This document shows positions 1-20,345 of a stretch of 20,345 bases of DNA, one piece after another (within the stretch, counting starts at the first letter, position 1; the number at the start of each line of letters is the position of its first letter). The position numbers were made by a program, and so were the translations under genes. Origin of the DNA: a virus; IMG/VR virus record IMGVR_UViG_3300022934_000258, positions 1-20,345 of that record; one strand, written 5' to 3'. A model generated the notes under the pieces. It made no database searches. It was not told where the DNA came from and worked only from the letters and a program-made list of their open reading frames with translations.

Positions 1-182
1 TGCAGGAACGTGTCCTTCAAGCCATCTTGGGTTTGGTCATTTGCCAGGACAATCTCCTGCTTGGTTGTGTCGCACCAACCGGCAGCTTCCGCCATTTTGC
101 CGTCGGCGGTAAATCTTACTTTGTAAGACAGGTTAAGAATCTGCAACCGTTTCGGCGGGGTTATTTTTCTAACTGCCCCCAT
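1..182 (-). CDS. Partial phage protein, possible ImmA/IrrE-type metallopeptidase N-terminus
   Basis: This open frame starts at an ATG at 182 inside the end of the nuclease-like gene and runs off the left edge after 60 codons. The visible part has a basic start, a beta-rich stretch (YKVRFTADGK), a WCD turn, a QEIVLAND strand and then DGLKDTFL. The next codon begins CA, so it is His or Gln. Small phage metallopeptidase-like proteins of the ImmA/IrrE (DUF955) type have this layout and continue as TLLHE-x-x-H, so a zinc-binding HExxH just past the edge is my inference. The active site is not in the window, so function is unproven. It overlaps its upstream neighbour by 22 bases, typical of this operon. 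Confidence 0.5.
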   Translation of the reverse strand, partial: MGAVRKITPPKRLQILNLSYKVRFTADGKMAEAAGWCDTTKQEIVLANDQTQDGLKDTFL

Positions 183-574
183 GCCATGAAGTAAGGCGCC
201 AGGACGCCGTCGGTGCTGCCAGGCGCCCAATTGTATTTGACGGCCGTGGCGTACTTGACCGGCAAAACAAAAAAAGCGCGGTGTTCCAAACCGACAAAAA
301 CAATCACGTCGCAATCCTGCTTGGTGTAGGTTGTGTCGGTTCCGCGATGCTTGCAGGCGAATTGATAGCGGCCGACATTCTTCCCCTTGTCGACAATCGG
401 CCGCGCTGCCGTCTTAACTTGGACGCGGTGAAACTTCTCGCCCTTGACGGCGGCAATGTCAAAAGATGGTTGGTGCGGCGACATACAGACTTGCCAGCCG
501 CGAATGGACAATTCGGCCGCGGTCAGGTACTCGCCGGCAGCGGACACGCGGAAGTTGTCATTTGTATCCGCCAT
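161..574 (-). CDS. PD-(D/E)XK nuclease-like protein
   Basis: A 137-residue soluble protein whose first 60 residues read like the PD-(D/E)XK endonuclease fold: a helix with AGEYLTAAEL (Glu15), then a strand with Asp39 (SFDIAAV), then VQVKT with Gln52 and Lys54. This is the E...D...QxK pattern found in PF11645-type endonuclease-like and resolvase-like proteins, where Gln replaces the usual second acid. The rest is predicted beta-rich and ends in a Trp-containing tail. The ATG follows the TAA of the lipoprotein gene directly (TAAATG). Possible roles are DNA processing during packaging or degradation of foreign DNA; the sequence does not decide. The fold call is from motif reading only. Confidence 0.6.
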   Translation of the reverse strand: MADTNDNFRVSAAGEYLTAAELSIRGWQVCMSPHQPSFDIAAVKGEKFHRVQVKTAARPIVDKGKNVGRYQFACKHRGTDTTYTKQDCDVIVFVGLEHRAFFVLPVKYATAVKYNWAPGSTDGVLAPYFMAWGQLEK

Positions 575-775
575 TTAGTCGGGCCGCCGTTCAATTTCAT
601 ACTCAAGTTCGGCTATCGTCCGCAGCGCGTCCCTGGTGAAGTCCGGCGCCTCCATTGCCGCCCTTGGGAATTGCGGATGCGCCGTCAGCCTCTTGGTGTT
701 GTCGTACTCGACCGGCGCCGTATGGCAGCCCGTGAAGGCGCATAGCGTTATCAATATGAGTAAGTTTCGCTTCAT
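575..775 (-). CDS. Small lipoprotein, o-spanin (Rz1)-like
   Basis: A 66-residue protein with a textbook lipoprotein signal: MKRN, a hydrophobic core (LLILITLCA) and FTGC with the lipid-acceptor Cys at 17. The mature part is about 50 residues with a helical acidic C-terminus (ALRTIAELEYEIERR). I chose the ATG at 775 because the signal peptide begins there; the frame is open further upstream to 862 but that part is basic and lacks sense. Its first 173 bases lie inside the gene at 603-884 in another frame, the arrangement known for Rz/Rz1 spanin pairs. Rz1-type proteins sit in the outer membrane and join an inner-membrane partner to finish lysis in diderm hosts. The role is inferred from topology and location. 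Confidence 0.6.
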   Translation of the reverse strand: MKRNLLILITLCAFTGCHTAPVEYDNTKRLTAHPQFPRAAMEAPDFTRDALRTIAELEYEIERRPD

Positions 776-884
776 ATCTTGCTTTGGCTTTGGCTTCGCG
801 TATGGCATCCGATACCGACAAAAAAAGGCGCTCCAATGTCGGCAGCGCCTTGCAAAGCGCAACGATGGCGCCCACCAATGACAT
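603..884 (-). CDS. Membrane-proximal helical protein, possible inner spanin partner
   Basis: A 93-residue ORF starting at an ATG that overlaps the previous stop (TGATG). The N-terminus is hydrophobic and amphipathic (LVGAIVALCKALPTLERLF) and is followed by a charged helix rich in Ala, Lys and Glu (REAKAKARYEAKL). The last 40 residues are Gly-, Ala- and Gln-rich and low in predicted structure; they are encoded where the lipoprotein gene at 575-775 uses another frame, so their sequence may be constrained by it. The overlap, size and neighbours fit an inner-membrane spanin-like protein, but the hydrophobic segment is weak for a true membrane anchor. Short helical phage proteins with this kind of start are common next to lysis lipoproteins. 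Confidence 0.5.
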   Translation of the reverse strand: MSLVGAIVALCKALPTLERLFLSVSDAIREAKAKARYEAKLTHIDNAMRLHGLPYGAGRVRQHQEADGASAIPKGGNGGAGLHQGRAADDSRT

Positions 885-1060
885 CAAGCGTTTTCGGCGG
901 CGTTCTCGGCCTTTTTAACTCCATGCCGGAGAAAGACAGCCAGGGCGCTTGTTACTACAATTTGCAGCATCTCGCCGAATTGGATTTCCTCCATGAAAAA
1001 CGAACCGACCGCGCCGCAAATGGCCGTAACTCCGGCCCACAATGTTTTTGATTTTAGCAT
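884..1060 (-). CDS. Two-helix holin-like small membrane protein
   Basis: A 58-residue ORF, MLKSKTLWAG to AENAAENA. It has two hydrophobic stretches, roughly residues 7-23 (LWAGVTAICGAVGSFFM) and 29-45 (EMLQIVVTSALAVFLRH), and a charged C-terminal tail (HGVKKAENAAENA). Small proteins of this plan, with a TIWA- or TLWA-type start and an FLR-x-G end of helix 2, are frequent in phage lysis clusters and are annotated as holin or holin-like. It starts inside the upstream stop (TAATG) and its own TGA overlaps the next ATG (TGATG), so it is translationally coupled on both sides. Holins are inner-membrane proteins that trigger lysis by releasing or activating the endolysin. Confidence 0.6.
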   Translation of the reverse strand: MLKSKTLWAGVTAICGAVGSFFMEEIQFGEMLQIVVTSALAVFLRHGVKKAENAAENA

Positions 1061-1224
1061 TATTTTCCTTTGTTCCTAATTAAAAAAACTATCTTGGCAA
1101 CCAAGTAAACAAGGCAGGCGACCGAGATTGAAATTTGCAGTATTTGGGAGAGGTGTAGGTACCAAACGCCGACGCCACTTGTGCCGGCTCCCATCGCCTT
1201 GGCCATGTCGATGGCTTCATTCAT
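1060..1224 (-). CDS. Single-helix holin-like membrane protein
   Basis: A 54-residue ORF with a Gly-rich N-terminal segment (AMGAGTSGVGVWYLHLSQ), one clear membrane helix at about residues 28-49 (ILQISISVACLVYLVAKIVFLI) and a short basic end (RNKGK). The ATG overlaps the preceding lipoprotein stop as ATGA, and its TAA overlaps the following ATG as TAATG. Size, topology, positive C-terminus and position point to a holin or pinholin-type protein. No enzymatic motif is present. It and the next gene are adjacent holin-like ORFs, so one may be the holin and the other a regulator, or both may act together. Confidence 0.55.
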   Translation of the reverse strand: MNEAIDMAKAMGAGTSGVGVWYLHLSQILQISISVACLVYLVAKIVFLIRNKGK

Positions 1225-1430
1225 TTGGTGATGAAGTTGCCGTTCGTTGTCCGCTGCCAGGCGCCTTGTGGTGGCTCGTAAAATTCCACTTCAAATCCAG
1301 TAATTGATAAATCAATCGACTCGACGGGATTTGGCGTTACGCATCCTTGGCCGACAAGAATCGCAACCAAGCAGATTACTAAAATTGCGATGCTGTTCGC
1401 GCAACTCCGCAAGTCGTTTCTCAATTCCAC
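1221..1430 (-). CDS. Small lipoprotein-like ORF nested in the upstream membrane protein gene
   Basis: A 69-residue ORF with a GTG start at 1430. The N-terminus has a charged stretch then a hydrophobic core (SIAILVICLVAILVG) ending at QGC, which would place a lipid-acceptor Cys at about residue 30. The lipobox is imperfect, with Gly-Gln-Gly before Cys, so secretion as a lipoprotein is probable but not certain. The remaining 39 residues are polar with PP and several acidic residues, as in short outer spanins. The gene shares 119 bases with the upstream membrane protein gene in another frame and has a strong ribosome binding site inside it. Alternatives are a simple membrane peptide or a lysis regulator. 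Confidence 0.5.
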   Translation of the reverse strand: MELRNDLRSCANSIAILVICLVAILVGQGCVTPNPVESIDLSITGFEVEFYEPPQGAWQRTTNGNFITK

Positions 1431-1617
1431 AAATCTCCTTCTTTACCAGGTTAACCGAATCAATCAGCTTAACGATTATCGAATAGACGTTTTTAACCTC
1501 GCCGGATAAATCCCGCAGAACGTAGAACACCACGCGATAGCCAAACCACCCGACTGCCGCAGCGCAGACCACCGGAAACCCAAGCGTTTGGATTAAGTTG
1601 ACGGTGTCGGTTCCCAC
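1312..1617 (-). CDS. Membrane-anchored coiled-coil protein (BhlA-type holin or inner spanin)
   Basis: A 101-residue ORF starting at GTG (1617); an in-frame TGA sits just upstream, so no earlier start is possible. Residues about 9-32 form one membrane helix (LGFPVVCAAAVGWFGYRVVF), followed by a heptad-like charged helix up to about residue 75 (IVKLIDSVNLVKKEICGIEKRLAELRE). The C-terminal 25 residues are basic and coded across the region shared with the nested lipoprotein gene. An N-terminal anchor with a coiled coil is typical both of BhlA/UviB-like holins and of Rz-type inner spanins. The nested lipoprotein favours the spanin reading, while the NLIQTLGFP start resembles the BhlA group. I cannot choose between them from sequence. 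Confidence 0.55.
   Translation of the reverse strand: MGTDTVNLIQTLGFPVVCAAAVGWFGYRVVFYVLRDLSGEVKNVYSIIVKLIDSVNLVKKEICGIEKRLAELREQHRNFSNLLGCDSCRPRMRNAKSRRVD
1435..1440 (-). promoter_or_regulatory. Ribosome binding site inside the upstream gene
   Basis: The minus strand reads AAAGAAGGAGATTTGTGG. AAGGAG is a near-perfect Shine-Dalgarno core placed four bases before the GTG at 1430. It lies within the coding sequence of the gene at 1312-1617. Many starts in this window have no such site, so its presence supports the nested GTG-started ORF as genuinely translated. Confidence 0.65.
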
Positions 1618-1628
1618 TCATCGCCGCC

Positions 1629-1910
1629 CTACTCTGCCGCAGATTCCTCGCTAGATTCTTCAGCCGCCGGTTCAGCCGGTGCATTCGCTTCAGCAAACGC
1701 CGCCACAACAGCATCCGTTTGCACCGCCGCGCAAATGTTGCGCGTCACTTCTGCCTCGGCGGAATAATCCTCGCCGGGTGTAATCGGCTTGCGGTGGTTG
1801 TTGCTGCCAACTGCCACGCCGTCATCGGTTACAGTTGTTATAGTTTCCACGAACACCACGCCGTTTGGCTCGATGTCGTGCTTCAATGTTTCTGTTTTTT
1901 CTAATGCCAT
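1629..1910 (-). CDS. Small conserved-type tail-region protein, unknown function
   Basis: A 93-residue acidic protein. The first 60 residues look structured, with alternating beta segments (NGVVFVETITTVTDDGVAVG) and a polar turn (HRKPITPGEDYSAEAEV). This is followed by a helix that ends in a low-complexity tail of Ala, Glu and Ser. Short proteins with this plan (an N-terminal strand pair, an ITPGEDYS-like loop and a helix with TDAVVAAF) are common just after tail fibre genes in siphoviruses, where no clear function is known. It follows the fibre gene at 1914-2888 by three bases. It may be a fibre chaperone or small tail component; that is a guess from position. Confidence 0.6.
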   Translation of the reverse strand: MALEKTETLKHDIEPNGVVFVETITTVTDDGVAVGSNNHRKPITPGEDYSAEAEVTRNICAAVQTDAVVAAFAEANAPAEPAAEESSEESAAE

Positions 1911-1913
1911 TTT

Positions 1914-2888
1914 TTAAACAAAGTATGTGAGTGTGAATGTGATGTCGGTGTTTCCAGATGATAAGCCGGATATTGGTGCTGGCGCGTCTGTGCTTCCATT
2001 CACGTAGTACATCAAATTGACGTATGAGGCAGTCGGGCTGACTAGCGCATAAAACGGCCCGACTGCTGATGAGTATTGCCGAACGCGACTTGTGCCGGTG
2101 TAACCTTGGCCGCCACTTGCTGAAGCGAACGGCAAGCCAGATATTTTTATTGAACCGGAACCGGCAGATGTTTCAGTAATGTTTACCAACGAACAATAGA
2201 CAGTCACTTGGTTGCCTATTCGCGTGTAAGTTGCGGTGCTGCTGGCGGTGTAAGTACCAGCGGTTGAATCGCCTGCAAAAACTGGTGTCCAATCACCCTC
2301 GCCATAATAGTCGAGTTGGTTGTTTGCCGCTGCCGTTGGTGCAGCACCAGCACCATTCGGAAACGTAATGCCAAGCGTTCCTAACCGCAGACGAGTGTAG
2401 TTGTCTTTGCGAACGTGAATGGCATCACCGTCATCTGTTGTGCGGTTGCTAGTAATTGCCAGCCCGCCATCTCGCGTGAACGTGGATTGGCCGCTGCTGT
2501 CTATGCTGAGACGAGTCTGCGGCGAACCTCCAGATGCAGCGGTGTTGAATAGTATTTTACCAGAGTCAGCCGCCGACCCCGTTACCATTCCAATCTGAGA
2601 AGTTGTCGCGTAGCCAGAGTTGTAGGTTTGCGATGAAATGTAATTGCCATCGCTATTGGCATTTGAGTTGGTAGGTGAAGCAGTAGTTCCGCGACTATGC
2701 CTCATTATGACTTGGTTTACACCGCCATTTGCTACGTCGGTTAGTTGGACATTTGTTGTGCCATTTATTTCAACATCGCCAACGTTAGTTTTTCCGCTGA
2801 CCAACAATTCACCATCAGCAGGAGTCGCGCTACTTGTGCCGACCTTCAGCTTCCCGACTGTTTCGGGGTTCTTCTTGATGTCAATCAT
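1914..2888 (-). CDS. Tail fibre-like protein with C-terminal beta-rich domain
   Basis: A 324-residue protein rich in Ser, Thr, Gly and Asn, typical of trimeric phage fibres. The N-terminal third has short repeated strands (GKLKVGTSSA, GELLVSGKTNVGDVEING). The middle has the fibre-type segment LSIDSSGQSTFTRDGGLAI. The C-terminus from about residue 200 (GEGDWTPVF..TAGTYTASSTATYTRIGNQVTVYCSL) matches a widespread appended domain of tail and capsid fibre proteins: GxWTP, then GTY, then YT+IG, then a GLPF loop. Such domains usually face outward and may bind host surface or cover the virion. The start has AAGGG seven bases upstream. It lacks a visible intramolecular chaperone. Confidence 0.7.
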   Translation of the reverse strand: MIDIKKNPETVGKLKVGTSSATPADGELLVSGKTNVGDVEINGTTNVQLTDVANGGVNQVIMRHSRGTTASPTNSNANSDGNYISSQTYNSGYATTSQIGMVTGSAADSGKILFNTAASGGSPQTRLSIDSSGQSTFTRDGGLAITSNRTTDDGDAIHVRKDNYTRLRLGTLGITFPNGAGAAPTAAANNQLDYYGEGDWTPVFAGDSTAGTYTASSTATYTRIGNQVTVYCSLVNITETSAGSGSIKISGLPFASASGGQGYTGTSRVRQYSSAVGPFYALVSPTASYVNLMYYVNGSTDAPAPISGLSSGNTDITFTLTYFV

Positions 2889-2897
2889 GGCCAGCCC

Positions 2898-3206
2898 TTA
2901 TTTATCGTAAAACGCGATGCATCCGTCGCCGGCAGTTTCCACGTCGATATAGAATTGCGCGTCGGTGAAGTAGTCGTCAGGTGAATCGGCGGTGAACGTG
3001 ATTGTGTCGCCAGGGTTCAACGGTATGCCTGCCGTGTCGTTACCGCTGGCCGGCTGAATGTAGACCTTGCCGGCGTTGTCGGTGCGTGCCGCCTTCATGC
3101 CAACGAAGGTGAAGGAATGGCCGCGAACGGCGCCGCTGCCTAATGCCTCCGGCGTGCCGGTGGCGCTGACTGTCTTGGTGATGCTTCCGAATTGCTGCTG
3201 TGCCAT
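2898..3206 (-). CDS. Small beta-rich virion-associated protein, unknown function
   Basis: A 102-residue protein predicted to be a compact beta sandwich, with segments such as SITKTVSATG, RGHSFTFVGM, GKVYIQPASG, GDTITFTAD and AQFYIDVETAGDGCIAFY. There is no signal peptide, membrane helix or enzyme motif. It sits between two fibre-like genes with 9-11 base gaps, so a structural role in the tail tip or as a small fibre accessory is likely. The pattern of one strand per about 12 residues with a final GDGCIAFYDK resembles small beta-sandwich proteins found in phage virion clusters, which supports the class but not a defined function. Confidence 0.6.
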   Translation of the reverse strand: MAQQQFGSITKTVSATGTPEALGSGAVRGHSFTFVGMKAARTDNAGKVYIQPASGNDTAGIPLNPGDTITFTADSPDDYFTDAQFYIDVETAGDGCIAFYDK

Positions 3207-3217
3207 TGTATTAAATT

Positions 3218-4126
3218 TTAAGGGTTAACGCTAAAGAGTATCCAACGGCTCGCGCCGCTGTCGTAAATAAACTGTGCAGAACCGCGTGCCGTGATTGTCA
3301 CGTCGGCCGCCGTCATGGTGTAGATGCGATTGGCGGCCGTGGATTCATTGCTGCTGTCATGGTCGATTACAACGCCGTAGCTTGCGTTTGGGTTGTACAG
3401 AATGACCACCCTGCCGTCGGCACCGCCGCTGATGCCAACCAGGGTCGGGTCGGCCGACGTTGTACCCAGCTTGATGAATGTCGCATTGTAGGGATTCAAC
3501 GTGTGGTTGCCTGCGCCCGTGATGGCCGTGTCGTCCAGCTTGGCCAGTTTGAATTGGGCCGTATTCGACAACGCCAGAGCGCCGGTCATTGTGCCGCCGG
3601 CTTTTGCCACGAAATTGGCGTCGGTTTGCGCTTGCGTGTAATAGCTACTTGATGGCGACGGGGCGCTGGCGCCGCTGTCGATGCCATGCGGCTGAATGCT
3701 GATTGACTGCTGAATGGCCGTCAGATTGTTGCCGCCATTTATGTACTCCGCCTCGATGGTTGTCGTGGCTGGCGACGTGTTGGCGCTGCCGTAGCCGAGG
3801 CTATCAATTTCGCTGGTGTTGAGGTCAAGCGTTGCGTCGGCATAATAGTCGGAACCATCTGCCGAAATGCTGGTGGCGCTGGTGGTTGCCAGGACGGCCG
3901 GACTGCTGCTGTTAGGCGTAACGATTGCCAACTCGATGCTGCCGGCAGTCACCAGGTCGAAAGGCGATGTCAGGCCACCGTCCTCTTTTGGTGTTACCAG
4001 GCGAATGCGAAGCGGTAGCACGTCGCCCTGGTAAAGTTTATCCAAGGAAAACGTGCTTGAATCGTAGCGACTTGTGACGAATTTGCGGTTCGTCAGGTCA
4101 ATTGTTAGCTCGAATTTGTTCGCCAT
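3218..4126 (-). CDS. Tail fibre or baseplate protein with GGTMTGAL hinge
   Basis: A 302-residue protein. Residues 1-145 form a beta-rich head (FELTIDLTNRKFV, LYQGDVLPLRIRLVTP) that resembles N-terminal attachment domains of upper-fibre proteins. Residues about 165-185 contain YYTQAQTDANFVAKAGGTMTG, the fibre hinge motif widely seen in tail fibres before a shaft. The C-terminal part has GRVVILYNPN and a final SGASRWILFSV, fitting a small beta domain. A strong GGAGG lies just before the ATG, 45 bases after the 1052-residue gene ends. It probably links the tail tip to the distal fibre at 1914-2888. Binding specificity cannot be read. Confidence 0.65.
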   Translation of the reverse strand: MANKFELTIDLTNRKFVTSRYDSSTFSLDKLYQGDVLPLRIRLVTPKEDGGLTSPFDLVTAGSIELAIVTPNSSSPAVLATTSATSISADGSDYYADATLDLNTSEIDSLGYGSANTSPATTTIEAEYINGGNNLTAIQQSISIQPHGIDSGASAPSPSSSYYTQAQTDANFVAKAGGTMTGALALSNTAQFKLAKLDDTAITGAGNHTLNPYNATFIKLGTTSADPTLVGISGGADGRVVILYNPNASYGVVIDHDSSNESTAANRIYTMTAADVTITARGSAQFIYDSGASRWILFSVNP

Positions 4127-7531: not shown

Positions 7532-8401
7532 TTAACTTGCTACCGTGTAAATCCAGGTCGACCAGAGTTCTAGTTTCCACTCTTGCGTCAGCGTAATCTT
7601 GCGGCGGCCTTCGGACACAATCTTCGGCGCTGATTTTAGCCACCCCCATTGATGGTCAATTCCGTCAATCTGCTGGACGCCGGTGCTGGCGTTGACTCCG
7701 CTTGGCCTGCTGTTCGTCTGTGCGTTGGTGATGCTGGTCGTGATGGCGGCATCAAGTGTCGGTTCGCCGATTGTGGCGTTGCCGGTCAGTTGTGCCGGCG
7801 TGATGATGTAATTAACGTAAGAATAAGCACGCTGCACGACGTTGGCGGCGTAGTTGTATTCGGGGGAAAAGGTCAGCGTGTGCCGCAGCGTGTAGGTCGG
7901 CCGCTGCCAAGAGTCCTGTTCCTTGGTCAAATGCCGGTAAATGCTTTTGAGGTCAGCAGGACAGCTTGAGTCCGACAAGAATGCCGGAACAATGACATCA
8001 CCGTCGGCGTCGGTTTCGACCTCCTGTTCCAGTTGCTTTTTAATTTTGTTCCGCGCTTTTTCATTGTCCGCGGTTTGAAAGTCGATTGCCTTGATTTTTG
8101 GATGTTCCCAAAGGCTGTATTGCGTGTCGTTGCCGTCCAGTTCCCAAATTTCGACCGGCGTTTCGTCTAGGCCGCTGCCGCCCCAAACGTCCTTTTGATA
8201 GTTGACGTATAATTTTGCCGTCGCACCGTCCGGCTCGAAACGAATGTTGCTGGCTGAACCGTCGCGGACATATCGGCCCATCAGTCCGCGCACCGCAGTC
8301 GTTTCGCCTTCAAACTCCTTCGTGAACGAGAAGCCGTTGTTTTTGTCCCAGGCAATGCTTGGGTTCTGTTCGACTAAATTGACTCCCTTGACTGTCGGCA
8401 T
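7532..8401 (-). CDS. Distal tail protein candidate, family not recognised
   Basis: A 289-residue protein lying directly after the tape measure, where siphoviruses usually carry distal tail (Dit-like) or tail-tip genes. It is a mixed alpha/beta, Trp- and Tyr-rich protein without membrane segments: an N-terminal beta region (NNGFSFTKEFEGETTAVRG), a central charged helix (KARNKIKKQLEQEVETDADG), and a C-terminus with repeated strands ending KLELWSTWIYTVAS. The repeated TLRHTLTFSPE and ITLTQEWKLELW strands could mark two related beta domains. One base separates it from the tape-measure stop. I did not recognise a named family; the Dit-like role is inferred only from location. Confidence 0.55.
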   Translation of the reverse strand: MPTVKGVNLVEQNPSIAWDKNNGFSFTKEFEGETTAVRGLMGRYVRDGSASNIRFEPDGATAKLYVNYQKDVWGGSGLDETPVEIWELDGNDTQYSLWEHPKIKAIDFQTADNEKARNKIKKQLEQEVETDADGDVIVPAFLSDSSCPADLKSIYRHLTKEQDSWQRPTYTLRHTLTFSPEYNYAANVVQRAYSYVNYIITPAQLTGNATIGEPTLDAAITTSITNAQTNSRPSGVNASTGVQQIDGIDHQWGWLKSAPKIVSEGRRKITLTQEWKLELWSTWIYTVAS

Positions 8402-8402
8402 T

Positions 8403-9599
8403 TTATTCGGTGTTCCTCGCGGTGTCCTTGGTGTTGTTGGCGATGCGCTTCAGCAGCACGTTGTTGTCCTTCTCGATGGCGATTGGGTCGGCCGATTGAC
8501 TCACGGCCGCGCCTATGCGCTGCAAGGCGTTGAGTGCAAGGCTTGGTTTCATAAATGACTTGGCGCCTGCTGCTGCCGCTGCTGATTCACTTACTTGAGA
8601 AGTTGGCAATTGTCCGACATTTGAACCAAGGAAAACACCCCTATCCATGTTCATGTCGTCGCGTACCAGTTCTCCGGTGGCAAGGTTGACCGGTACGCCT
8701 TGTCGCATCAAACGCCGCCTTTCCCTGTCTCGTGCAACTGTTATTTTGGAATCATCAGATGCCGCAAATGGTAAAAGTTCTGCCAGCAATGTCTCAAAAA
8801 AGCCGGCGTTGCTTTTAACAAAAGGCTGCTTTCCGCCGGAACCAAGCTTGCCAACCTCGCCTGGCTTAAATGACATTGTTTCTTTTCTATATTCAGCGTT
8901 TAGGCCAAGAAACGCATTGGCCAACCCTTTTACCGCTAAAGCTGCGCCTGGCAATATCTCCCTTTTTAGCCGGTCAAGTTCGTCGTTAAATTCTGCAAGG
9001 CGTTTAATGGTATCAACGTCAATCGGGTCGGGCGCCGATGCGGCAGTCGCAGCAAAGCCAGAGACAAAAGCCGGAACCAACTGGCGGCCACCGCGGCCCA
9101 TGATGTCCTGCAACGATTTGGCCTTGTCCAACGCGCCGCCAGCCTTCTCGATTGATTCTGCAATCTTGAGGAAAATTTCTTCCGGCGTGCTGGTCTTGAT
9201 TTGCTGCATTGAAATTCCGAACGCTTCAAATGCGCGTATGTATGTTGCAAGTCCCTGCTCGGCGCCTTCCATGGCCTGCGCCGTTTTCATAAACGACCTT
9301 TCAACCATTTCAATCGTGGCGCCGTTCTGGCTGGCGGCAAAATCAAACTTCTGCGCGGTGTCAGTCGACGACTCCATGCGCTTGGCCATTTTGTCGATGG
9401 CGTCAGCGTGCTGCACCATTCGCATCGTGGCGCTGCGGAGTGCAGAAACAGCAAACAAACCGCCGACCATTCCGGCCATGCTTGCTGCCATACGGCCGGC
9501 AGATGCTTTGGTGCCGGTTTCCATCTTCCGCAAACCGGCAGCCCAACCGGAACCGTCCAACGACGTCCGGCCCTTCACGTTCATGTGCGCGGTTGCCAT
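8403..9599 (-). CDS. Tail tape measure protein (short)
   Basis: A 398-residue, mostly helical protein. It has a hydrophobic N-terminal region (MAASMAGMVGGLFAVSALRSAT, residues about 37-58), long amphipathic helices (AIDKMAKRMESSTDTAQKF, then GLATYIRAFEAFGISMQQI) and a C-terminal repeat-like end (LLKRIANNTKDTARNTE) often seen at the end of tape measures. It sits immediately after the tail chaperone (TAATG junction) and before distal tail genes, the fixed place of gpH in lambda. Tape measures set tail length at roughly 0.15 nm per residue, so this would give a tail of about 60 nm. The short length is unusual: lambda gpH is over twice as long. Confidence 0.8.
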   Translation of the reverse strand: MATAHMNVKGRTSLDGSGWAAGLRKMETGTKASAGRMAASMAGMVGGLFAVSALRSATMRMVQHADAIDKMAKRMESSTDTAQKFDFAASQNGATIEMVERSFMKTAQAMEGAEQGLATYIRAFEAFGISMQQIKTSTPEEIFLKIAESIEKAGGALDKAKSLQDIMGRGGRQLVPAFVSGFAATAASAPDPIDVDTIKRLAEFNDELDRLKREILPGAALAVKGLANAFLGLNAEYRKETMSFKPGEVGKLGSGGKQPFVKSNAGFFETLLAELLPFAASDDSKITVARDRERRRLMRQGVPVNLATGELVRDDMNMDRGVFLGSNVGQLPTSQVSESAAAAAGAKSFMKPSLALNALQRIGAAVSQSADPIAIEKDNNVLLKRIANNTKDTARNTE

Positions 9600-12032: not shown

Positions 12033-12215
12033 CTATGCAGAAATTTTTCTGCGTCTGTAATAAAGGGGTTGACGGTAAATATAAACCTCGTCGAACTTTG
12101 GCTTTTCAGCGTCAACCTCTTTTTTCATTGCCTCAAGTGCCTTGTCGGCTGAATCGCCGAGGTAAAGCGTTTTGAGTTTGTCGCCCTTACGGCCGACTGC
12201 AATGTTGACTTTCAT
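12033..12215 (-). CDS. Small protein after the capsid gene, unknown function
   Basis: A 60-residue basic protein (MKVNIAVGRKGDKL...YYRRRKISA). The ATG overlaps the capsid TGA (TGATG); a TTG just upstream would add one residue. There is a beta start (KVNIAVGRKGD), a helix (DSADKALEAMKKEVDA) and a strand (FDEVYIYRQPLYYRRRK). It takes the place of the FI-type or other capsid-accessory gene of lambda, but it is shorter and unlike gpFI. A role in capsid or terminase docking is a guess. Coupling to the capsid gene implies that it is made in step with it. Confidence 0.5.
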   Translation of the reverse strand: MKVNIAVGRKGDKLKTLYLGDSADKALEAMKKEVDAEKPKFDEVYIYRQPLYYRRRKISA

Positions 12216-13096
12216 CAAGCAGAAAGAATGCGCTTGAGGCTGTCAGTACCAGCGGCAACGCCGTAAATCAGCGTGGCGGTGATGTACTGAGCGCCGTCTT
12301 TTCCTTCGTACCAATTCCGTAACTGCAAGGTGATGCCGGTGTCGGGGTCTTGGACAGATTCGACAGCGCCGGCCCAGTTTTCCGGCAGCGCCGGCTGGCG
12401 GCCTGCAATTATCAAGGCTTCCTTGCCGCAGACAAAACCTTCCAGGTTCTCGGAGTTCGACGGAATGTCGGAGTATTCCAACACGTCGAAACCGTGAACG
12501 CGGGGGATGTTATTGTCTTGAATGGCGCCAGGGTTGCCGAATGCGTAGCTGGCTTGAATAGCGTTGTCCTTGGCGAGCGCGGCATAGTAGGCCGGCTTGA
12601 TAACCATGCTGCGCGGTGAACGCGGCACGTTCAGGGTCGTCAGGTCGCCTGCAAGCGTGGCAACGTCGTCGGCGCCAAAGTCCGCGGCGGCCACGACGGT
12701 GTTGTTGCTGTAAGTTGCGTTAACAACCAAGGCCAGCAAGTCGTCCATCATTGCGTTGACGACAGCGTGAACGGCCGGACGAACAAAAGTCCGCTCCAAC
12801 ATATCCAAGCCACCCTTTGCCACTTCCAGGTCGGTAAACTTGGCGGTGAAGTGCTTGTGCTTGTTCAGCGTGATGGTCTTGGCCGTTGAGGTTACATCAG
12901 AAGAGGAATAACCGCTTGTGGCGTCTCCTGCGCTTACAGCAGTCGCTACGCGAGTGCTGACCGATTCGCCGACATCAGCAACGTCGCTGCTGAAATCAGT
13001 CGTGAATGCCGAAACGACTGGCATTTCTGCGCTGAGTGTTTCAAGCGTTTGTTGTGCTATTTGAGCGAGGTTGATTCCTCCGAGTGTGTTTGCCAT
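12215..13096 (-). CDS. Major capsid protein (HK97-fold type)
   Basis: A 293-residue protein, the usual size for an HK97-fold coat. It starts with a polar helix (LGGINLAQIAQQTLETLSA), then a beta region with many Ser/Thr (STRVATAVSAGD), a spine-helix-like stretch (RPAVHAVVNAMMDDLLALVVNA, residues about 104-125), NVPRSPRSMVIKPAYYAAL, and ends with LQLRNWYEGKDGAQYITATLIYG and GTDSLKRILSA, resembling P22/HK97-type ends. It lies right after the scaffold candidate and has the best Shine-Dalgarno in the head region (AGGAGA, eight bases before ATG), as expected for the most abundant virion protein. No protease target is clear, although the S49 enzyme upstream would trim a scaffold or delta region. 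Confidence 0.8.
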   Translation of the reverse strand: MANTLGGINLAQIAQQTLETLSAEMPVVSAFTTDFSSDVADVGESVSTRVATAVSAGDATSGYSSSDVTSTAKTITLNKHKHFTAKFTDLEVAKGGLDMLERTFVRPAVHAVVNAMMDDLLALVVNATYSNNTVVAAADFGADDVATLAGDLTTLNVPRSPRSMVIKPAYYAALAKDNAIQASYAFGNPGAIQDNNIPRVHGFDVLEYSDIPSNSENLEGFVCGKEALIIAGRQPALPENWAGAVESVQDPDTGITLQLRNWYEGKDGAQYITATLIYGVAAGTDSLKRILSA

Positions 13097-13110: not shown

Positions 13111-13116
13111 AAAAAA

Positions 13117-13529: not shown

Positions 13530-14684
13530 TTATGCTTTCCCAAGTTTTTGCAAGAGGGAATCCAAGTTTTTGGCGGTGCCGTCTACCATGCCAACGTCGG
13601 CAGCCTTGCGGCCGGTCAACGTCTGGCCTTGCATATATTCGTAATTGAGTTCGGCGCGGTACTTCTTAACGAAGCCAGAAAACTCGTTGTATGTTTCCAT
13701 CACTTCAAGTTGTAGGTGCTTGCGAACCTCTTCATCCAATGCGACGCCAGGGAATCCGGCAGCCTTGTATTTGCCGCTCTTAAAAATCTCAACCGTGACG
13801 CCTTTCTCGGCCAACGCCTTGCTGGTGTCCATTACCGGCAGATATACTCCGATGCTGCCAACCTCGGCCGATGGTGCGGCGAAAATGCCGTTGGCACCGG
13901 CGGCCATCCAGTAGGCCGCGCTGGCCATCATGCTGTCGGTGTAGGCGTAAATCTTTTTGACGCCGGCACGTTGCACGTCCTCGACTGTCTCGGCCAACTC
14001 CGGCACGCCGCCGACGGTTCCGCCAGGTGAGTCGATGTCCAAAATGATTGTGTCGATGTCGTCATCCTCGGCCGCCAGTTCAATGGCAGCAATCACGTCG
14101 ACGGTGTCGACCGCGCCAAGCAGTTTTGAAACGGCCGAAACCTTGTGACCGATGACGCCGGCGACGGGAATGATTGCGACGCCGTTTTCCTCCGTCATCG
14201 CGTAGTCGTCCATCATGTCATCGTCGTCCTCGTCGTCGTCAAGGATGACGGTTGCCGTCAGGGTCGCGCTGGCCTGCTGCAAGTGTTTCGGGTTGATGGC
14301 CCAAACCTTGTTGTCAGCGGCCGTGCTGTTTTGTTGTTCGTCTATCGTTTTCATTCTATCAACTATTCTATTTGCCCAGGCGCGGCCAGGGTTGCCGCCC
14401 CACAAAAGCCAGGCGATTAAACCGGCGCCAGGGTATCCGGCAGCGTCGGGGTCTTTGTTCTTCGGCGCCTCCATGTCGACAGCGTGACGGTCAAAATATG
14501 CCTTCATCCGCTTGACGGTGTCGGTCGACAATTCGTCTCGCCTGGCCAACTGGTTGGCCCTTGTCACGCCGACCCTAGTGCCGCCGCGCTTAAATTCTTT
14601 TCGTAACCGCAAACCGCGCTTGGCCGCATTTGCCACGGCCTCGGTCGGCTTGGTGTTAATCTCTCTGCCCTTGTAAGTTGCCAT
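13530..14684 (-). CDS. Fusion: phage N-terminal domain plus S49 capsid assembly protease
   Basis: A 384-residue protein in two parts. Residues 13-110 hold a domain seen in other phage head proteins: AAKRGLRLRKEFKRGGTRVG, then DTVKRMKAYFDRHAVDM, DAAGYPGAGLIAWLLWGG and a final PGRAWANRI. Residues about 165-384 are an S49 (SppA/lambda gpC-like) peptidase: DIDSPGGTVGG (214-226), catalytic Ser255 in MMASAAYWMAAGA and the general-base Lys in FKSGKYKAAG (Lys305/307). An acidic linker of mostly Asp (149-160) joins the two. It should cleave scaffold or capsid in the prohead. The start overlaps the portal end by 29 bases. Confidence 0.85.
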   Translation of the reverse strand: MATYKGREINTKPTEAVANAAKRGLRLRKEFKRGGTRVGVTRANQLARRDELSTDTVKRMKAYFDRHAVDMEAPKNKDPDAAGYPGAGLIAWLLWGGNPGRAWANRIVDRMKTIDEQQNSTAADNKVWAINPKHLQQASATLTATVILDDDEDDDDMMDDYAMTEENGVAIIPVAGVIGHKVSAVSKLLGAVDTVDVIAAIELAAEDDDIDTIILDIDSPGGTVGGVPELAETVEDVQRAGVKKIYAYTDSMMASAAYWMAAGANGIFAAPSAEVGSIGVYLPVMDTSKALAEKGVTVEIFKSGKYKAAGFPGVALDEEVRKHLQLEVMETYNEFSGFVKKYRAELNYEYMQGQTLTGRKAADVGMVDGTAKNLDSLLQKLGKA

Positions 14685-16044
14685 CTGCCGGCAGTCCGTT
14701 CGGGGTCAGCAATTGCACGCGGTTCGGGTCGATGCCGTATTTGTCGGCCAGGTCTAAAACGAACCGCTGCTCGCTGATTCGTTTCTCGACTTCATCTTCC
14801 CAATGCAGGCCGCGTTCCGCATAGAGTTCCTGCAACGTCGTCAAACCAAGTTTGTAATCTTCGCGGGCGGCGCCGGCATCGCGGCCACCGTCGACGCTAA
14901 TCTTGCGCGGCCCCTGGTAGTGCCATGAGTACCAATCACCGCCCTGCGGTCGCGGTAGAAGGCCAGCCTTCATGGCTTTGCTTAATGCGTACCCATCAAT
15001 CCGCCTGGCAATCTTGCGGACAAGCCTCTGGTTTTTCTCGACGGTGCGCTGTGCCTTGGCTGTTACCAGGCGAACAACAGCGCCGCCGATTTTTGTCGGG
15101 TCGAGGCTTAAATCATACGGCCATTCGATTGCTTGAAAGGCGCTTCGCAGAATCGTGTTCTCAAACTCCTGCGCGTTCGCCGATGGGCGGTTCCTATCTA
15201 CCACCTCAATCTTACTACCAGAACCGGCGCGGAAGTATCGAATGGCCCCTCCCTCCAACGACTCCAGGGTCGTTGATAGGCTGCCGCTATCAATGGTTTG
15301 CTCGATGAAGGCTTCAGAGTCGTCGGCGTATCCGTCCTCGTTGTGTTCGACGAGTGCGATGCTGCTGGCTGCCTTTTGTGCGCTGAGTTCATATTCTCGG
15401 AGTTCCTTGACGTCCTGCAAGTCGGCTGTCACGGCCGACAGCGGCGAAATGCCGCGGCCTTGGTCGGCCCACTCTGGAAAAAAGCACAAGGCCATATCGC
15501 GGGCGCTGACTTTGCGCTCGCCGTCAATCATGTAGCTGACAGGCCGACCCTGCTTGTTGGTGATTACTCCATTAAATTCGTTTGGTCCTTGCGTCCTGCT
15601 GGCGATGCGGTGCGCTGGTATTAACTGCACGGCCGGATAACCGCTGCCGGTCTTGGTCAGCAGCACGCCGACGTCGCCGTCGCGCTTAATGGACAACAAG
15701 GCCAGGTAAAGAAACTCCTCGAAGTCGCATTTGCCTTGGATGTCGAGAATGCCGTGAAACTCTTTCAGCCATGTCTCGGCTTGTGCGCCCCATTCCAAGT
15801 CCTTGCCGACATACTGCGGAACAAATGGCTGCACCGAATAAGTGCATTGTTCCAGTAGCGCACCGCGTACCGGTGCGAAGTTGCCAAACAGCCAACGGCC
15901 CGCGCTGACAAGTTGCTGGTGCGTGCCGGTCGGTATCAGTTGCCTGGTGTCTTTGTTGAGATAGCGCAGCGGCCGACGGTGCCGGTTGCTTTGGTATTGA
16001 GGTTCCCAAAGGCTGCCGAGTTTTTTCAAGAATCCTTTAAGCAT
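14656..16044 (-). CDS. Portal protein (lambda gpB family)
   Basis: A 462-residue protein of the lambda portal family (PF05136). It shows the N-terminal helical entry (LVSAGRWLFGNFAPVRGALLEQ), a central beta region with YPAVQLIPAHRI and VSYMIDGERKVS, QGRGISPLS at 195-203, the long helical stretch around ELREYELSAQKAASSIAL, and RDAGAAREDYKLGLTTLQEL near 388-407, a signature of this family. The dodecameric portal forms the head vertex, drives DNA entry with the terminase and joins the tail. The length is close to family norms (gpB 533, shorter ones common). Eight bases overlap with the gpW-like gene. Confidence 0.9.
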   Translation of the reverse strand: MLKGFLKKLGSLWEPQYQSNRHRRPLRYLNKDTRQLIPTGTHQQLVSAGRWLFGNFAPVRGALLEQCTYSVQPFVPQYVGKDLEWGAQAETWLKEFHGILDIQGKCDFEEFLYLALLSIKRDGDVGVLLTKTGSGYPAVQLIPAHRIASRTQGPNEFNGVITNKQGRPVSYMIDGERKVSARDMALCFFPEWADQGRGISPLSAVTADLQDVKELREYELSAQKAASSIALVEHNEDGYADDSEAFIEQTIDSGSLSTTLESLEGGAIRYFRAGSGSKIEVVDRNRPSANAQEFENTILRSAFQAIEWPYDLSLDPTKIGGAVVRLVTAKAQRTVEKNQRLVRKIARRIDGYALSKAMKAGLLPRPQGGDWYSWHYQGPRKISVDGGRDAGAAREDYKLGLTTLQELYAERGLHWEDEVEKRISEQRFVLDLADKYGIDPNRVQLLTPNGLPADGNLQGQRD

Positions 16045-16288: not shown

Positions 16289-16330
16289 TTCCTTCCCATG
16301 TTAGCGGATGGCCCGTTTTCTCAAGCGAAA

Positions 16331-16376: not shown

Positions 16377-16435
16377 CTAGTTATGAGTGAGCGCCCGTTG
16401 CGGGCTGTTGTCATGTCCAAACAACCTTAACCATG

Positions 16436-16461
16436 AAAAGCCGGCAGAACCAAAAGCCGGC
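16436..16461. repeat. Short direct repeat AAAAGCCGGC
   Basis: AAAAGCCGGC occurs at 16436-16445 and 16452-16461, sixteen bases apart start to start, in the non-coding gap. The spacing is about one and a half turns of helix. It may be a protein-binding site or a chance duplication. Confidence 0.4.
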
Positions 16462-16499
16462 GAAACGATTGCAAACTAGGTCGGCAAATCGTCAAGCGG

Positions 16500-16890: not shown

Positions 16891-17057
16891 TCTTGTTCGC
16901 CTTCAGCTTTAGCGATTGCTTCCCTTACTTTCTTTTCCTCGTAGCTAAAAAGGCCGCATACATCTTTCCATTCTTCGTGATATGCAAGCACCGCCCGCAA
17001 CGCTTCCAACATTGCCGGAGCGGCATCTGCCAATCGGTCATTTTTGCTTTTTTTCAT
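16887..17057 (-). CDS. Small helical phage protein, unknown function
   Basis: A 56-residue ORF with two predicted helices: APAMLEALRAVLAYHEEW and YEEKKVREAIAKAEGEQE. This resembles a widespread small phage protein type whose pattern is LLEAL-x-x-V then a final AIAKAEG. The ATG adjoins the preceding stop (TAAATG) and the TGA overlaps the next ATG (ATGA). It has no signal or membrane segment. No biochemical role is known to me. Confidence 0.65.
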   Translation of the reverse strand: MKKSKNDRLADAAPAMLEALRAVLAYHEEWKDVCGLFSYEEKKVREAIAKAEGEQE

Positions 17058-17249
17058 TTAGTATGCGTGTAAATCGCTTGGCTTACTTTTAAGGCTTAAA
17101 AGGTAAGGGTCAACAGTTGGCTTGATTGGCTCATGGTTTGTGGCATTCCAAGCGTTGACTATCAATTCGCCCGTGCTGTCGTCGATGTAAACGGTTTTGC
17201 CGTTGATGGTGATGTAAACCACTTCGTCGCTTTTCTTTTCGATTTTCAT
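17058..17249 (-). CDS. Small hypothetical protein with a good ribosome binding site
   Basis: A 63-residue ORF: a charged start (MKIEKKSDE), then VVYITINGKTVYIDDSTGELIV, a likely three-stranded beta fold, and a polar C-terminus (PYLLSLKSKPSDLHAY). GGAAAGGAACC lies 11 bases upstream. A GC-rich hairpin stands immediately before that site (17266-17290). The strand-turn-strand pattern could allow a small barrel or a domain that binds a partner strand. No family recognised. Confidence 0.6.
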   Translation of the reverse strand: MKIEKKSDEVVYITINGKTVYIDDSTGELIVNAWNATNHEPIKPTVDPYLLSLKSKPSDLHAY

Positions 17250-17265
17250 TTCGTTTGGTTCCTTT

Positions 17266-17290
17266 CCCGCGCCCCCGTAGGGGCAACGGG
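17266..17290 (-). promoter_or_regulatory. GC-rich hairpin before the 63-residue ORF
   Basis: On the minus strand CCCGTTGCCCCTACGGGGGC folds with the following GCGGG: a core stem GCCCC/GGGGC around TACG, extended by CCCG/CGGG with a small internal loop. It ends a few bases before AAAGGAAC. No T-tract follows, so it is not a terminator; a mRNA-stability or translation-control element, or a processing site, is possible. Confidence 0.45.
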
Positions 17291-17299
17291 TTGAAGTGA

Positions 17300-17644
17300 T
17301 TATGCTGTATATAGTGTGTTTCCCTTTCTAGTAAATGACCGCGGGCCGCATTCGCCGATTCTTGCAGACTCGGAAAGGAACTTTTTCTCGCTTTCTGTAA
17401 CTTCCCACACTACCGGCCATTGTGTTGTTCGCAAATTATTGTCGTGATTAGCGTAAAAGCTATCTGGCTTTTTTCCAAAAGTGTAATGGTTGGGCTGTTC
17501 GTAGAAGTCGTAGCTCCAAACTGAACCATATTCTCGATGCGACTTGCGAAGCACTTTGCCGTTCATTTCATATTGGAAGGTTTTGAAAGAACCGTCCCGC
17601 TTTGTGAGTACCTTGCCTGTGACGTGTAATTTTGTTGATGTCAT
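17300..17644 (-). CDS. Hypothetical protein in an AT-rich insert
   Basis: A 114-residue ORF. The frame is open up to 17710 with a TTG start, but that part overlaps the upstream gene; ATG at 17644 (MTSTKLHVTGKV) leaves a 22-base gap. The protein is basic and Tyr/Phe-rich, with beta segments (HVTGKVLTKRDGSFKTFQYEM, VWSYDFYEQP, HYTFGKKPDSF) and ends in GECGPRSFTRKGNTLYTA. GC over 17401-17640 is about 44% (105 of 240 by count), against about 60% in a sampled stretch of terL. No family recognised; its composition suggests recent transfer. Confidence 0.55.
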   Translation of the reverse strand: MTSTKLHVTGKVLTKRDGSFKTFQYEMNGKVLRKSHREYGSVWSYDFYEQPNHYTFGKKPDSFYANHDNNLRTTQWPVVWEVTESEKKFLSESARIGECGPRSFTRKGNTLYTA

Positions 17645-17666
17645 ATCTGTAATTAAGTGTTGAAGA

Positions 17667-17870
17667 TTAAGCGCCGTATCTATTCCAAACGCTGACCATT
17701 TGATTCGCAAAATTAAGCGCCTCTCTTTTCAATTTGAAATGTTCGGCCCTGTATCCGGTTTCTGACAAAACCGCCCACTTGTAGCCGAATGAGGCTTTGT
17801 CTAATTTGCAAACCTTAACCGATTTGCCCGATTCTGTTTTGCTGTGCCAAACTGTTTTTTGATTTTTCAT
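17667..17870 (-). CDS. First ORF of the small-ORF block, hypothetical
   Basis: A 67-residue ORF read from ATG at 17870. The frame runs open to a TTG at 17945, but that TTG is the start of the promoter's TTGACT box, so I reject it. The protein is basic: NQKTVWHSKTESGKSVKVCK, then YKWAVLSETGYRAEH and a helical end (KREALNFANQMVSVW). A TGA from a ten-codon upstream frame (17899-17867) overlaps the ATG, which might act as a leader. No Shine-Dalgarno is visible. Function unknown. Confidence 0.5.
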   Translation of the reverse strand: MKNQKTVWHSKTESGKSVKVCKLDKASFGYKWAVLSETGYRAEHFKLKREALNFANQMVSVWNRYGA

Positions 17871-17913
17871 ATTAGCTTTATTTGTTGGCTTGGGTTCATT
17901 CCCTCGCGCTGCA

Positions 17914-17933
17914 AACAGTAAAACCCAACTGTT
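17914..17933. promoter_or_regulatory. Operator-like inverted repeat over the promoter
   Basis: AACAGT and ACTGTT form perfect six-base arms separated by eight bases (AAAACCCA), a spacing typical of sites for dimeric repressors. It covers the -10 region of the promoter candidate. Which protein would bind is unknown; a host or phage repressor, or the AT-hook protein, are possibilities. Confidence 0.45.
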
Positions 17934-17945
17934 CGGTTTAGTCAA
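17915..17945 (-). promoter_or_regulatory. Promoter candidate for the small-ORF block
   Basis: Just after terL the minus strand has a run of T and A (positions about 17948-17970) like an UP element, then TTGACT (five of six match to the -35 consensus, 17940-17945), and after 17 bases TTTACT or after 19 bases TACTGT as a weak -10. An inverted repeat overlaps the -10 region. The promoter would drive only the small ORFs, which end at the terminator at 16331-16376. Confidence 0.5.
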
Positions 17946-17976
17946 CCCCTTTTTTGAAAAAAAATAAAAAAAGTTT

Positions 17977-19716
17977 TTAGGCCGTTTCCGCCAGGCATTT
18001 GGCCATCATGGCCGCCGCAATCTGCATACCTTCGCAGTCCCAAAGGTGATTGGCCCGCTTGCCGACACGGTGCCATTCGTAAACGGTTTGGCCGGCCTTG
18101 TCGTGGCGCTCCCTGCGGCGCTCGGAAAACATTTGCAGTTCGTACTCGTTGCCGGCATCCGGCGTCACCGTCCAATTTGCACCACGGCCGTCGCGTAGGT
18201 TGGCCAATACATCTTTGCAAGTCGGGTTGCTCCAATGAAACAAAGTCACCGGCCGCACCCTGCCCTGGCTTTTGGTTCCCACGGCGGGGTCGACATAGAC
18301 GCGGGGAGAGTAGGCGCGGCGAACGGTTTCGCCTTTTATTTTGTGCGCGAAGTCTTTGGTCTTGGCTCCCTTTATTGACGTGAAGCCGAAACGCTTGCAG
18401 GCCGCATAAACTTTTTGCGCGTTGTAGCCGGAGTCGACGAACACCAGGTGCGGCTTGACGTTGTACTCGGCCCGCAAGTCCTCGATGCTTTCAAACGTCA
18501 ACGGCTTCGACCAATGCACAAGCCGGCTCTGGCCGTCGGCAGCCCAGGCGCGGACTACCAAATAAAATAAATCACGCTGCACGTCGACGGTGGCAAAGCG
18601 GAAGGCTTCGTCGGGCCAAGGCCATTCGTCGTCGTGCGTTGCCAGTTCCCGCAGTTCGTCGTCGGTTTCCATTTCTTCTATCCACGGCACGCCAAGCGAC
18701 TCGGCCTTGAATACCTTCAGCGGAACGGTGGTTCCGACTTTCATCGCGGCCTTGGCTTGTAAAAATTCCTGCACCAAATCACGCCAGGGAACCCACGGCG
18801 GCAGGACGGCCGACCAGCGGAAACTGACCTTCTCGCTTGGCGCCTTCTCGTTCGTGGACCGCCACTTGCCGGAAATGGCGAAGGCTTTGCGGACGTCCTG
18901 CCGGTCGGTGAAGGTTGCCATGCAATGCGGACACTCGTAGCGGATTGTCTTGGCTAGTTCGTCGAAGTCGTATTCGTCATTTACGAAGGTGACTTCGTTG
19001 GTGTCCCATTTGATGAAGTCGAAATTCATTTCGTGGCGTTCGTCGCATTCTGGACAAAGTACCTCGTAAATTCTTTGGTCGCCGGCAAGAAAAGCGCGAT
19101 GCACATGGTCATTTTCATGGTCAGGTGTTGAGATAACCACGCGGCGTGCGTTCCAAAATGCGCGTGTTCGTTTTATCACCATCTCGTATGCGCCTGGTGG
19201 ATAGTTCCGCACCTCATCCAGAAACAGCCACCGGATTGGCTTCGACTGCAATTTGCTTTGGCTGTTGGCGCCGTTAATCACCAGCGGCATCGAGGCGAAA
19301 TTGATTTCGAGGGTCGTCTTGGCGTGCCGGTCGGTTGGGAACAACTCGGCAACCGCTTCGCAGTTTTCCAGCGTCGGCATTAGCCTTGTCCTAGCGAATG
19401 TCTTGGCTTCGTCTTGTGCGGCCATTACCCACATGGCAGGGCCAGGGTCTTGTGCGATGCACCAGGCCGCCAAGGTTATCACCATTTGAGTTTTGCCGGA
19501 TTGGGCGCTGCACATGATGGCCAAATCCTTGCACCTATTATCAGCGAAGCATTCCATCGGTTCCTTTGTCCAAGGCGCGATGTTGGCGTCGAATTTGCCA
19601 GGGAAAGGCGAAGTTTTATCCACGACAATATTCTTCTCGGCCCACCGCCATGGCGGGTCGGTGCTGCGCGGTGCTATTGCCCGCCTTGCGATGCGTTCAA
19701 CCGTTGTCGTCTCCAT
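17977..19716 (-). CDS. terL: Terminase large subunit, GpA family
   Basis: A 579-residue packaging motor of the lambda GpA type (PF05876). The ATPase half shows Walker A CSAQSGKT (69-76), Walker B WLFLDE with Asp167/Glu168 and a coupling motif VVISTPD (193-199). A zinc-ribbon is supported by CPEC at 221-224 and CPHC at 262-265. The nuclease half has the RNase H-like acids: Asp378 (ATVDVQ), Asp428 (VFVDSG) and Asp560 (HLWDCE). Size is a little shorter than lambda gpA (641). It cuts and translocates concatemeric DNA into the prohead, docking on the portal. Start overlaps terS by 43 bases. Confidence 0.95.
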   Translation of the reverse strand: METTTVERIARRAIAPRSTDPPWRWAEKNIVVDKTSPFPGKFDANIAPWTKEPMECFADNRCKDLAIMCSAQSGKTQMVITLAAWCIAQDPGPAMWVMAAQDEAKTFARTRLMPTLENCEAVAELFPTDRHAKTTLEINFASMPLVINGANSQSKLQSKPIRWLFLDEVRNYPPGAYEMVIKRTRAFWNARRVVISTPDHENDHVHRAFLAGDQRIYEVLCPECDERHEMNFDFIKWDTNEVTFVNDEYDFDELAKTIRYECPHCMATFTDRQDVRKAFAISGKWRSTNEKAPSEKVSFRWSAVLPPWVPWRDLVQEFLQAKAAMKVGTTVPLKVFKAESLGVPWIEEMETDDELRELATHDDEWPWPDEAFRFATVDVQRDLFYLVVRAWAADGQSRLVHWSKPLTFESIEDLRAEYNVKPHLVFVDSGYNAQKVYAACKRFGFTSIKGAKTKDFAHKIKGETVRRAYSPRVYVDPAVGTKSQGRVRPVTLFHWSNPTCKDVLANLRDGRGANWTVTPDAGNEYELQMFSERRRERHDKAGQTVYEWHRVGKRANHLWDCEGMQIAAAMMAKCLAETA

Positions 19717-20198
19717 TTGTCGTCCTCCAGAATTGCGAATGCCGCTGCAATGGCTTCGCGTTGTTTGATTTGTATGTCGGCCGCTTTCATGCCTTCAAGG
19801 ATTGGCGGCAGTTCGTTCTCCAATTTGGTGTAAATCATCCCCTTAAATTGGTGAACCATCCGCGTGACTTCCACTTCTACCTCCGACACCGGAATCAGCT
19901 TGCCCAGCTTTTCGTCGATTTCGATTTCCAGCAGCGCGTTCTTGCGTTGTAGGTTCTCCGCTTGTAGCCGGCCGCGGTTTAGTTCGTCGCCCTCGACCGG
20001 TTTTAGGCCGCGGGATTCGACGAACTTCTGCCAGGCTGCCAGGTCGTGACTGCCGTCGGGGAATGCCTGCGGCGCCCCGTCCATTTTTGACCAAACATAT
20101 AGTGCCGCCCTGCTGCATTGTAATATGTTGCAGAGTTCGACAATCGTCGGAATGCCGCGTCGACTTGTCTTTTTTTTAGCTGCCTTTTTTGCGGCCAT
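19674..20198 (-). CDS. terS: Terminase small subunit, Nu1-like
   Basis: A 174-residue protein. A Lys-rich N-terminus (MAAKKAAKKK) precedes a winged helix-turn-helix of the Nu1 type (residues about 16-62: PTIVELCNILQCSRAALYVW, then GSHDLAAWQKFVESRG). A coiled-coil region follows (GRLQAENLQRKNALLEIEI, 76-94), then LGKLIPVSEVEVEVTRM, and the end (FAILEDDKWRRQRLNASQ) likely contacts terL. The HTH recognises the packaging site, which should lie at or upstream of this gene. Overlap with terL of 43 bases matches other terS/terL pairs. Confidence 0.8.
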   Translation of the reverse strand: MAAKKAAKKKTSRRGIPTIVELCNILQCSRAALYVWSKMDGAPQAFPDGSHDLAAWQKFVESRGLKPVEGDELNRGRLQAENLQRKNALLEIEIDEKLGKLIPVSEVEVEVTRMVHQFKGMIYTKLENELPPILEGMKAADIQIKQREAIAAAFAILEDDKWRRQRLNASQGGQ

Positions 20199-20316
20199 AT
20201 TTCAATTGTGAGCGCAGTTTGTTTTCTGCGCGGGTTGGGTTCATTCGTATTGTTATCTGGCCGCCTTGCCGCAGTTGCGGGCCGAAGCGTGGCCACCTGG
20301 TTGATTTTTCACTCAT
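20176..20316 (-). CDS. 46-residue ORF before terS, uncertain
   Basis: ATG at 20316 opens a 46-codon frame rich in Arg, Gln and Gly (STRWPRFGPQLRQGGQ, then MNPTRAENKLRSQLKYGRKK). It overlaps the start of terS by 23 bases. Basic peptides of this size are common ahead of terS, but no Shine-Dalgarno is visible and the protein has no recognised match. The overlap is its main support. Confidence 0.4.
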   Translation of the reverse strand: MSEKSTRWPRFGPQLRQGGQITIRMNPTRAENKLRSQLKYGRKKGS

Positions 20317-20345
20317 AGAAAATAAAAAGTTGTGAATGGTCTCCA

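Follow-up and report, generated by a model that had tools for sequence, protein, structure and literature searches.

Loss of GATC and other restriction-type words, lineage by lineage, in a group of small tailed phages

The window analyzed here, which comprises the whole of a 20,345-base IMG/VR record, is the late region of a small tailed phage and runs to a natural DNA terminus, with all of the recognizable genes located on the minus strand (Table 1). The right end of the window is assigned as a natural DNA end because independent contigs of relatives from other samples begin at the same bases, GGWGACCATTC, which form base 1 onward of L001–L004, L008, L009, L012, L013, L015–L017, and L024; the equivalent bases in a more distant lineage are GGTGTCCATTC. 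This fixed terminus resembles that of cos-type phages. Relatives that begin or end at it extend to about 31 kb (G015 and G008), and the window therefore represents approximately two thirds of a genome. The terminase large subunit was used as the query for relatives and as the basis of the tree described below. A search for tRNA genes, as clues to the host, found none.

Table 1. Features of the 20,345-base window
Feature	Position	Strand	Basis or remark
PD-(D/E)XK_5 nuclease, 137 aa	161..574	-	PF11645
Tail-region gene	7532..8401	-	mosaic junction of G005 falls here (G005 about 7.35-7.6 kb)
Short tape-measure-like tail protein	8403..9599	-	phrog_2276
Major capsid protein	12215..13096	-	phrog_283; 35% identity to P8625
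S49-family head protease	13530..14684	-	PF01343
Portal protein, lambda family	14656..16044	-	PF05136
Terminase large subunit, GpA type	17977..19716	-	PF05876 and PF20454
Terminase small subunit	19674..20198	-	phrog_57
Natural virion DNA end	20304..20345	-	reads (T)GGAGACCATTC...; independent relatives' contigs share first bases

A script count found no GATC on either strand of the window, as the initial annotation had claimed, against expectations of 76 from base composition, 56 from an order-1 Markov model, and 52 from a maximal-order Markov model. Words made of the same four bases do occur, again as first reported (CATG 54, GTAC 27, and CTAG 20 times), as does GANTC (58), and the Markov expectations of 52–56 bear out the earlier view that composition is not the cause. 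The codon-preserving shuffle proposed there as a refuting test was run 1000 times on 26 genes (18.1 kb) and gave a mean of 49.7 GATC sites (S.D. 5.5, range 31–65), so that even its minimum of 31 leaves the claim standing. Relative to expectation, GATC is the lowest of the 256 tetramers by a wide margin, and 829 tetramers in the window differ from it by a single substitution. With a threshold for Type II restriction-site elimination of an observed/expected ratio under 0.1, the value for GATC (0/50–56) falls below the cut-off. The loss is genome-wide and not confined to a single gene, as GATC is missing from the whole window and from all of G015 (30,810 bases, running from the DNA terminus to a point shortly beyond the methylase gene) and G008 (30,910 bases).

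The relatives were grouped into lineage A (the window, G003, G015, and L064, with 66 kb of coding sequence), its sister lineage B (G006, L008, and the right part of G005, with terminases 93–94% identical to that of the window), lineage C (G008, most of G016, and L011), and a further lineage (G010, G013, G019, and L017). Codon shuffling gave expectations of 189 GATC sites for lineage A and 132 for lineage C, where none are found, and of 128 for lineage B, where 95, or about three quarters, are retained; the further lineage holds about 30% of expectation. Contigs with 97–100% terminase identity are without GATC, except for L003 (3 sites, 26 expected). On the terminase tree of 97 rows, the absence of GATC requires about seven changes and also appears outside the group of the window, in L126 (0/76) and L139 (0/42). 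Since GATC is missing from A as well as from C and B groups with A, the tree suggests that B may have regained the word. An artefact of library preparation is ruled out, since a single IMG/VR sample (3300030106) yielded both L004, with no GATC, and L008, with 34 sites. Base composition itself shifts considerably across a short protein distance in this group: G+C is 44% in lineage C (L012/L026) and 54% in the lineage of the window, with terminases 91% identical.

The initial annotation overlooked that GATC is just one of several restriction-type words absent from this DNA. The window contains one CCSGG (22 expected), one CASTG (14 expected), and two GGWCC (21 expected), and retains CCWGG (73, with 48 expected). 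The same set characterizes lineage A as a whole, with observed/expected counts of 3/92 for GGWCC, 6/131 for CCSGG, 11/105 for CASTG, 3/45 for GAAGAC, and 3/34 for ACCTGC, and with CCWGG retained at 214/163. Lineage B is the mirror image, as CCWGG is nearly eliminated (2/83) and CCSGG (34/56), CASTG (71/66), GAAGAC (33/32), and ACCTGC are retained. GGWCC is avoided throughout the group. Other lineages add words of their own, with GGCGCC and GACGTC almost absent from C, and CTNAG and GTCGAC almost absent from a lineage D. Most of these words correspond to sites of Type II enzymes: GGWCC to AvaII, CCSGG to BcnI/NciI, CCWGG to MvaI/EcoRII, CASTG to TspRI, GAAGAC to BbsI, and ACCTGC to BspMI. Among distant relatives (L030, L148, and L121, respectively), GTAC (0/27, 0/33, and 0/15) and ACGT (0/48, 0/50, and 0/28) form another avoided set.

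Not every shortage has this form. Lineage A is short of many six-base palindromes (e.g. CAGCTG, TTCGAA, GCGCGC, and CTGCAG) but not of others (GCCGGC, GGCGCC, GTCGAC, and CCATGG). Lineages A and B are both strongly depleted of the non-palindromic GAGC/GCTC (37/104 in the window), with GAGCA at 0/53 and AGCTC at 0/51 in B, which possibly reflects restriction at an asymmetric site or an effect of codon context. The low GAGC and the many low six-base palindromes both count against restriction by one or two enzymes.

The window and G006 share 12.5 kb of aligned orthologous DNA, over which lineages A and B can be compared directly. The window has no GATC, CACTG/CAGTG, CCCGG/CCGGG, or GAAGAC where G006 has 34, 25, 14, and 13, respectively, and has 50 CCAGG/CCTGG where G006 has one. 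When all differing words of four to six letters were ranked, the avoided restriction words came out on top; the window showed no comparable word shifts against G003 and G015 of its own lineage. At the GATC sites of G006, the window reads GGTC (7), AATC (7), TATT (3), TATC (3), AATT (2), GATT (2), GATG (2), and others, so that the replacements touch all four positions. This mixture points to selection against the word itself and not to one mutational process, for example deamination. The shortage of GATC is thus unexplained by base composition, codon use, or any one type of mutation. Composition and codon use are refuted by shuffles that never fell under 31, a mutational bias is at odds with the mixed substitutions, and an assembly or library artefact with the GATC-rich and GATC-free relatives from one sample; the likelihood that any of these four produced the pattern is negligible.

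Two contigs look mosaic. G005 matches G006 almost exactly from about 7.6 kb rightward and, at 2.5–7.5 kb, is of A type and 91% identical to the window; its missing-word set changes at about the same place as the sequence. No long stretch common to both sources was found at the junction. This arrangement fits DNA exchanged recently between lineages; the alternative is an assembly join. In G016 (L055/L056), an alternative early and tail-fibre segment carries all 33 GATC sites. The GATC-rich 6.6 kb (L026) was considered as a recombinant segment, a reading that was dropped because a 274-base stretch occurs twice in the contig as a 97% direct repeat (positions 8320–8593 and 38602–38875) and the contig exceeds one genome unit (about 30.3 kb). 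As the contig repeats itself, two variants have probably been joined here during assembly, and the segment was left out of the evidence.

An enzyme encoded by the phage, either the PD-(D/E)XK nuclease or a methylase, could in principle act at GATC. The nuclease gene occurs in the window as well as in further GATC-free records, and relatives encode orphan adenine methylases. The nuclease family, however, occurs alike in GATC-free and GATC-holding relatives: it is carried by G010, G013, G014 (counted via locus L022), and G019, where roughly one third of the expected GATC remains, and G016 has a second copy with GATC inside it. The nuclease was consequently rejected as an unlikely cause of the loss. 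The methylases, which have a DPPY motif and are encoded by G015 and G016, have no assignable specificity for GATC, and a search of 20 phage records for a Dam-type methylase (PF02086) found none. The nuclease would also leave the other missing words unexplained, and a phage-encoded cause is very improbable. The methylases have features of their own. G015 encodes a ParB-methylase fusion adjoining the terminase, comparable to that of the phage P8625 (KP792622). The small adenine methylases of G015 (L054:10091–10750) and G016 (L056:6113–6733) are nearly identical at their ends and differ in the middle, where target recognition is expected, and, judged from the sequences, the middles look as if they had been swapped. 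Our guess is that the phage methylases may protect certain sites, which would be retained for that reason.

The host was approached through relatives of the phage proteins. Searches of named phage records with the window DNA, and of bacterial genomes with the capsid protein, gave no match. A terminase alignment run against 84,980 species genomes of bacteria and archaea identified 18 relatives, of which 17 are titled Verrucomicrobiota and one only "bacterium". P8625, reported as the first lytic phage of Verrucomicrobiota (PMC4642752), shares with the window the order terminase, portal, protease, and capsid, with an upstream methylase as in G015, and protein identities beyond that of the capsid are 27% for the portal and 24% for the terminase. 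Like the window it avoids GGWCC (1/18 expected); unlike the window it retains GATC (198/225) and lacks GTAC (0/53). The terminase relatives and the kinship with P8625 together suggest that the host phylum is probably Verrucomicrobiota. The earlier proposal that the degree of avoidance could identify the host holds in part, as the phylum comes from the terminase relatives, and the avoided set indicates the defences probably met but not the species.

Candidate enzymes are present in this phylum. Of 388 sampled Verrucomicrobiota genomes, 11 encode a DpnII-family endonuclease, and both loci that were read have a Dam-like methylase next to that gene or close by; MvaI/BcnI-family enzymes (CCWGG/CCSGG) scored over the cut-off in 16 of 376. 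In one locus, a 179-residue ORF (L164:2364–2903) separates the DpnII-family gene from the Dam-like methylase and may be an additional component of the DpnII-type system. The nine clear DpnII-bearing genomes held no close relative of the window phage and one weak terminase match, and none of the 13 genomes with phage relatives yielded a DpnII hit.

The main rival to a conventional restriction enzyme is a DpnI-type endonuclease, which cuts methylated GATC. Dam-positive cells would methylate the GATC sites of a phage and DpnI-positive cells would cut such DNA at entry, so that alternation between DpnI-type and DpnII-type strains would give passage to GATC-free phages alone. The DpnI family scored over the cut-off in 14 of 376 Verrucomicrobiota genomes, a frequency similar to that of the DpnII family, including G022, itself the carrier of a phage relative (LVBW01000018, terminase 36% identical), and GATC as a Type IIM site was under-represented in all 46 of 46 phages whose hosts encode those enzymes (Rusinov et al., PMC6286503). 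The rest of the missing set consists of conventional Type II sites, whose loss does not call for methyl-directed cutting, and no Dam-type methylase was found in the 20 phage records; we consider a DpnI-type agent unlikely, if worth keeping in mind.

GATC is also the site for Dam/MutH and SeqA-type systems, and avoidance of Dam/MutH effects had been offered in the initial annotation as a possible cause. Disfavour of GATC through such systems leaves CCSGG, CASTG, GGWCC, and GAAGAC unexplained, as well as the change to CCWGG in lineage B, and the absence of PF02086 from the 20 phage records also weighs against it. It is accordingly given hardly any credence, slightly less than a phage-encoded enzyme.

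Collectively, these data are best explained by host Type II restriction that purged GATC and other words lineage by lineage, a reading that we consider probable. Past restriction at GATC, the other cause first suggested, is the best supported one, as other Type II sites are missing, the sets vary between sister lineages, and DpnII occurs in the phylum. Ancestors of this tailed phage of about 31 kb, probably infecting Verrucomicrobiota, would repeatedly have entered hosts with orthodox Type II systems, one of which would have cut unmodified GATC (MboI/DpnII/Sau3AI type). Genomes with GATC would have been cut at entry, and sites would have been lost until none remained, in reading frames where synonymous changes suffice. 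Other enzymes would have acted likewise, on GGWCC throughout the group, on CCSGG, CASTG, GAAGAC, and ACCTGC in lineage A, and on CCWGG in its sister. Host Type II restriction is a known selecting agent against such words, and about a tenth of prokaryotic virus genomes show complete or nearly complete site elimination, mainly for orthodox Type II systems (PMC6286503). Full elimination is rarer in temperate phages (PMC6286503), and the integrase carried by lineage C (G008) counts to that extent against a restriction purge.

Avoidance of restriction sites in phages is already well known, and there is a precedent for a GATC-free genome in Staphylococcus phage K, where the absence is attributed to Sau3A (PMC6532042). 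GATC is wholly absent from both phage K and the window and has in both been interpreted as escape from a GATC-cutting enzyme, but phage K has a 140-kb genome and a known host and enzyme, whereas the window phage has about 31 kb and, by its relatives, a probable Verrucomicrobiota host. The cases described by Rusinov et al. in 2018 (PMC6286503) likewise involve double-stranded DNA phages from which short palindromic Type II sites have almost vanished. The window differs from these in that several words are gone simultaneously, and its group in that the missing set varies between lineages whose terminases are over 90% identical.

This exchange of whole avoided-word sets between near relatives is the less ordinary aspect of the group. 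The evidence is about evenly balanced on a broader proposal, that avoided sets switch wholesale within one young phage group at about 7% terminase difference (GATC, CCSGG, CASTG, GAAGAC, and ACCTGC missing and CCWGG kept, versus the reverse), that each set preserves a legible trace of the restriction systems present in the hosts of that lineage, and that exchanged segments, as in G005, are recognizable by their old set before selection rewrites them. Avoidance was previously documented mainly in cultured phages, each compared individually; here, closely similar genes of uncultivated phages can be compared under differing restriction pressure, which could reveal how quickly such sites disappear and come back. 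The group also usefully extends the very sparse knowledge of Verrucomicrobiota phages, and the exchange of whole sets between close relatives merits host-linked study. The DNA of the window seems to record the host defences that its lineage met, and such records may allow the restriction systems of hosts to be read from a metagenomic virus.
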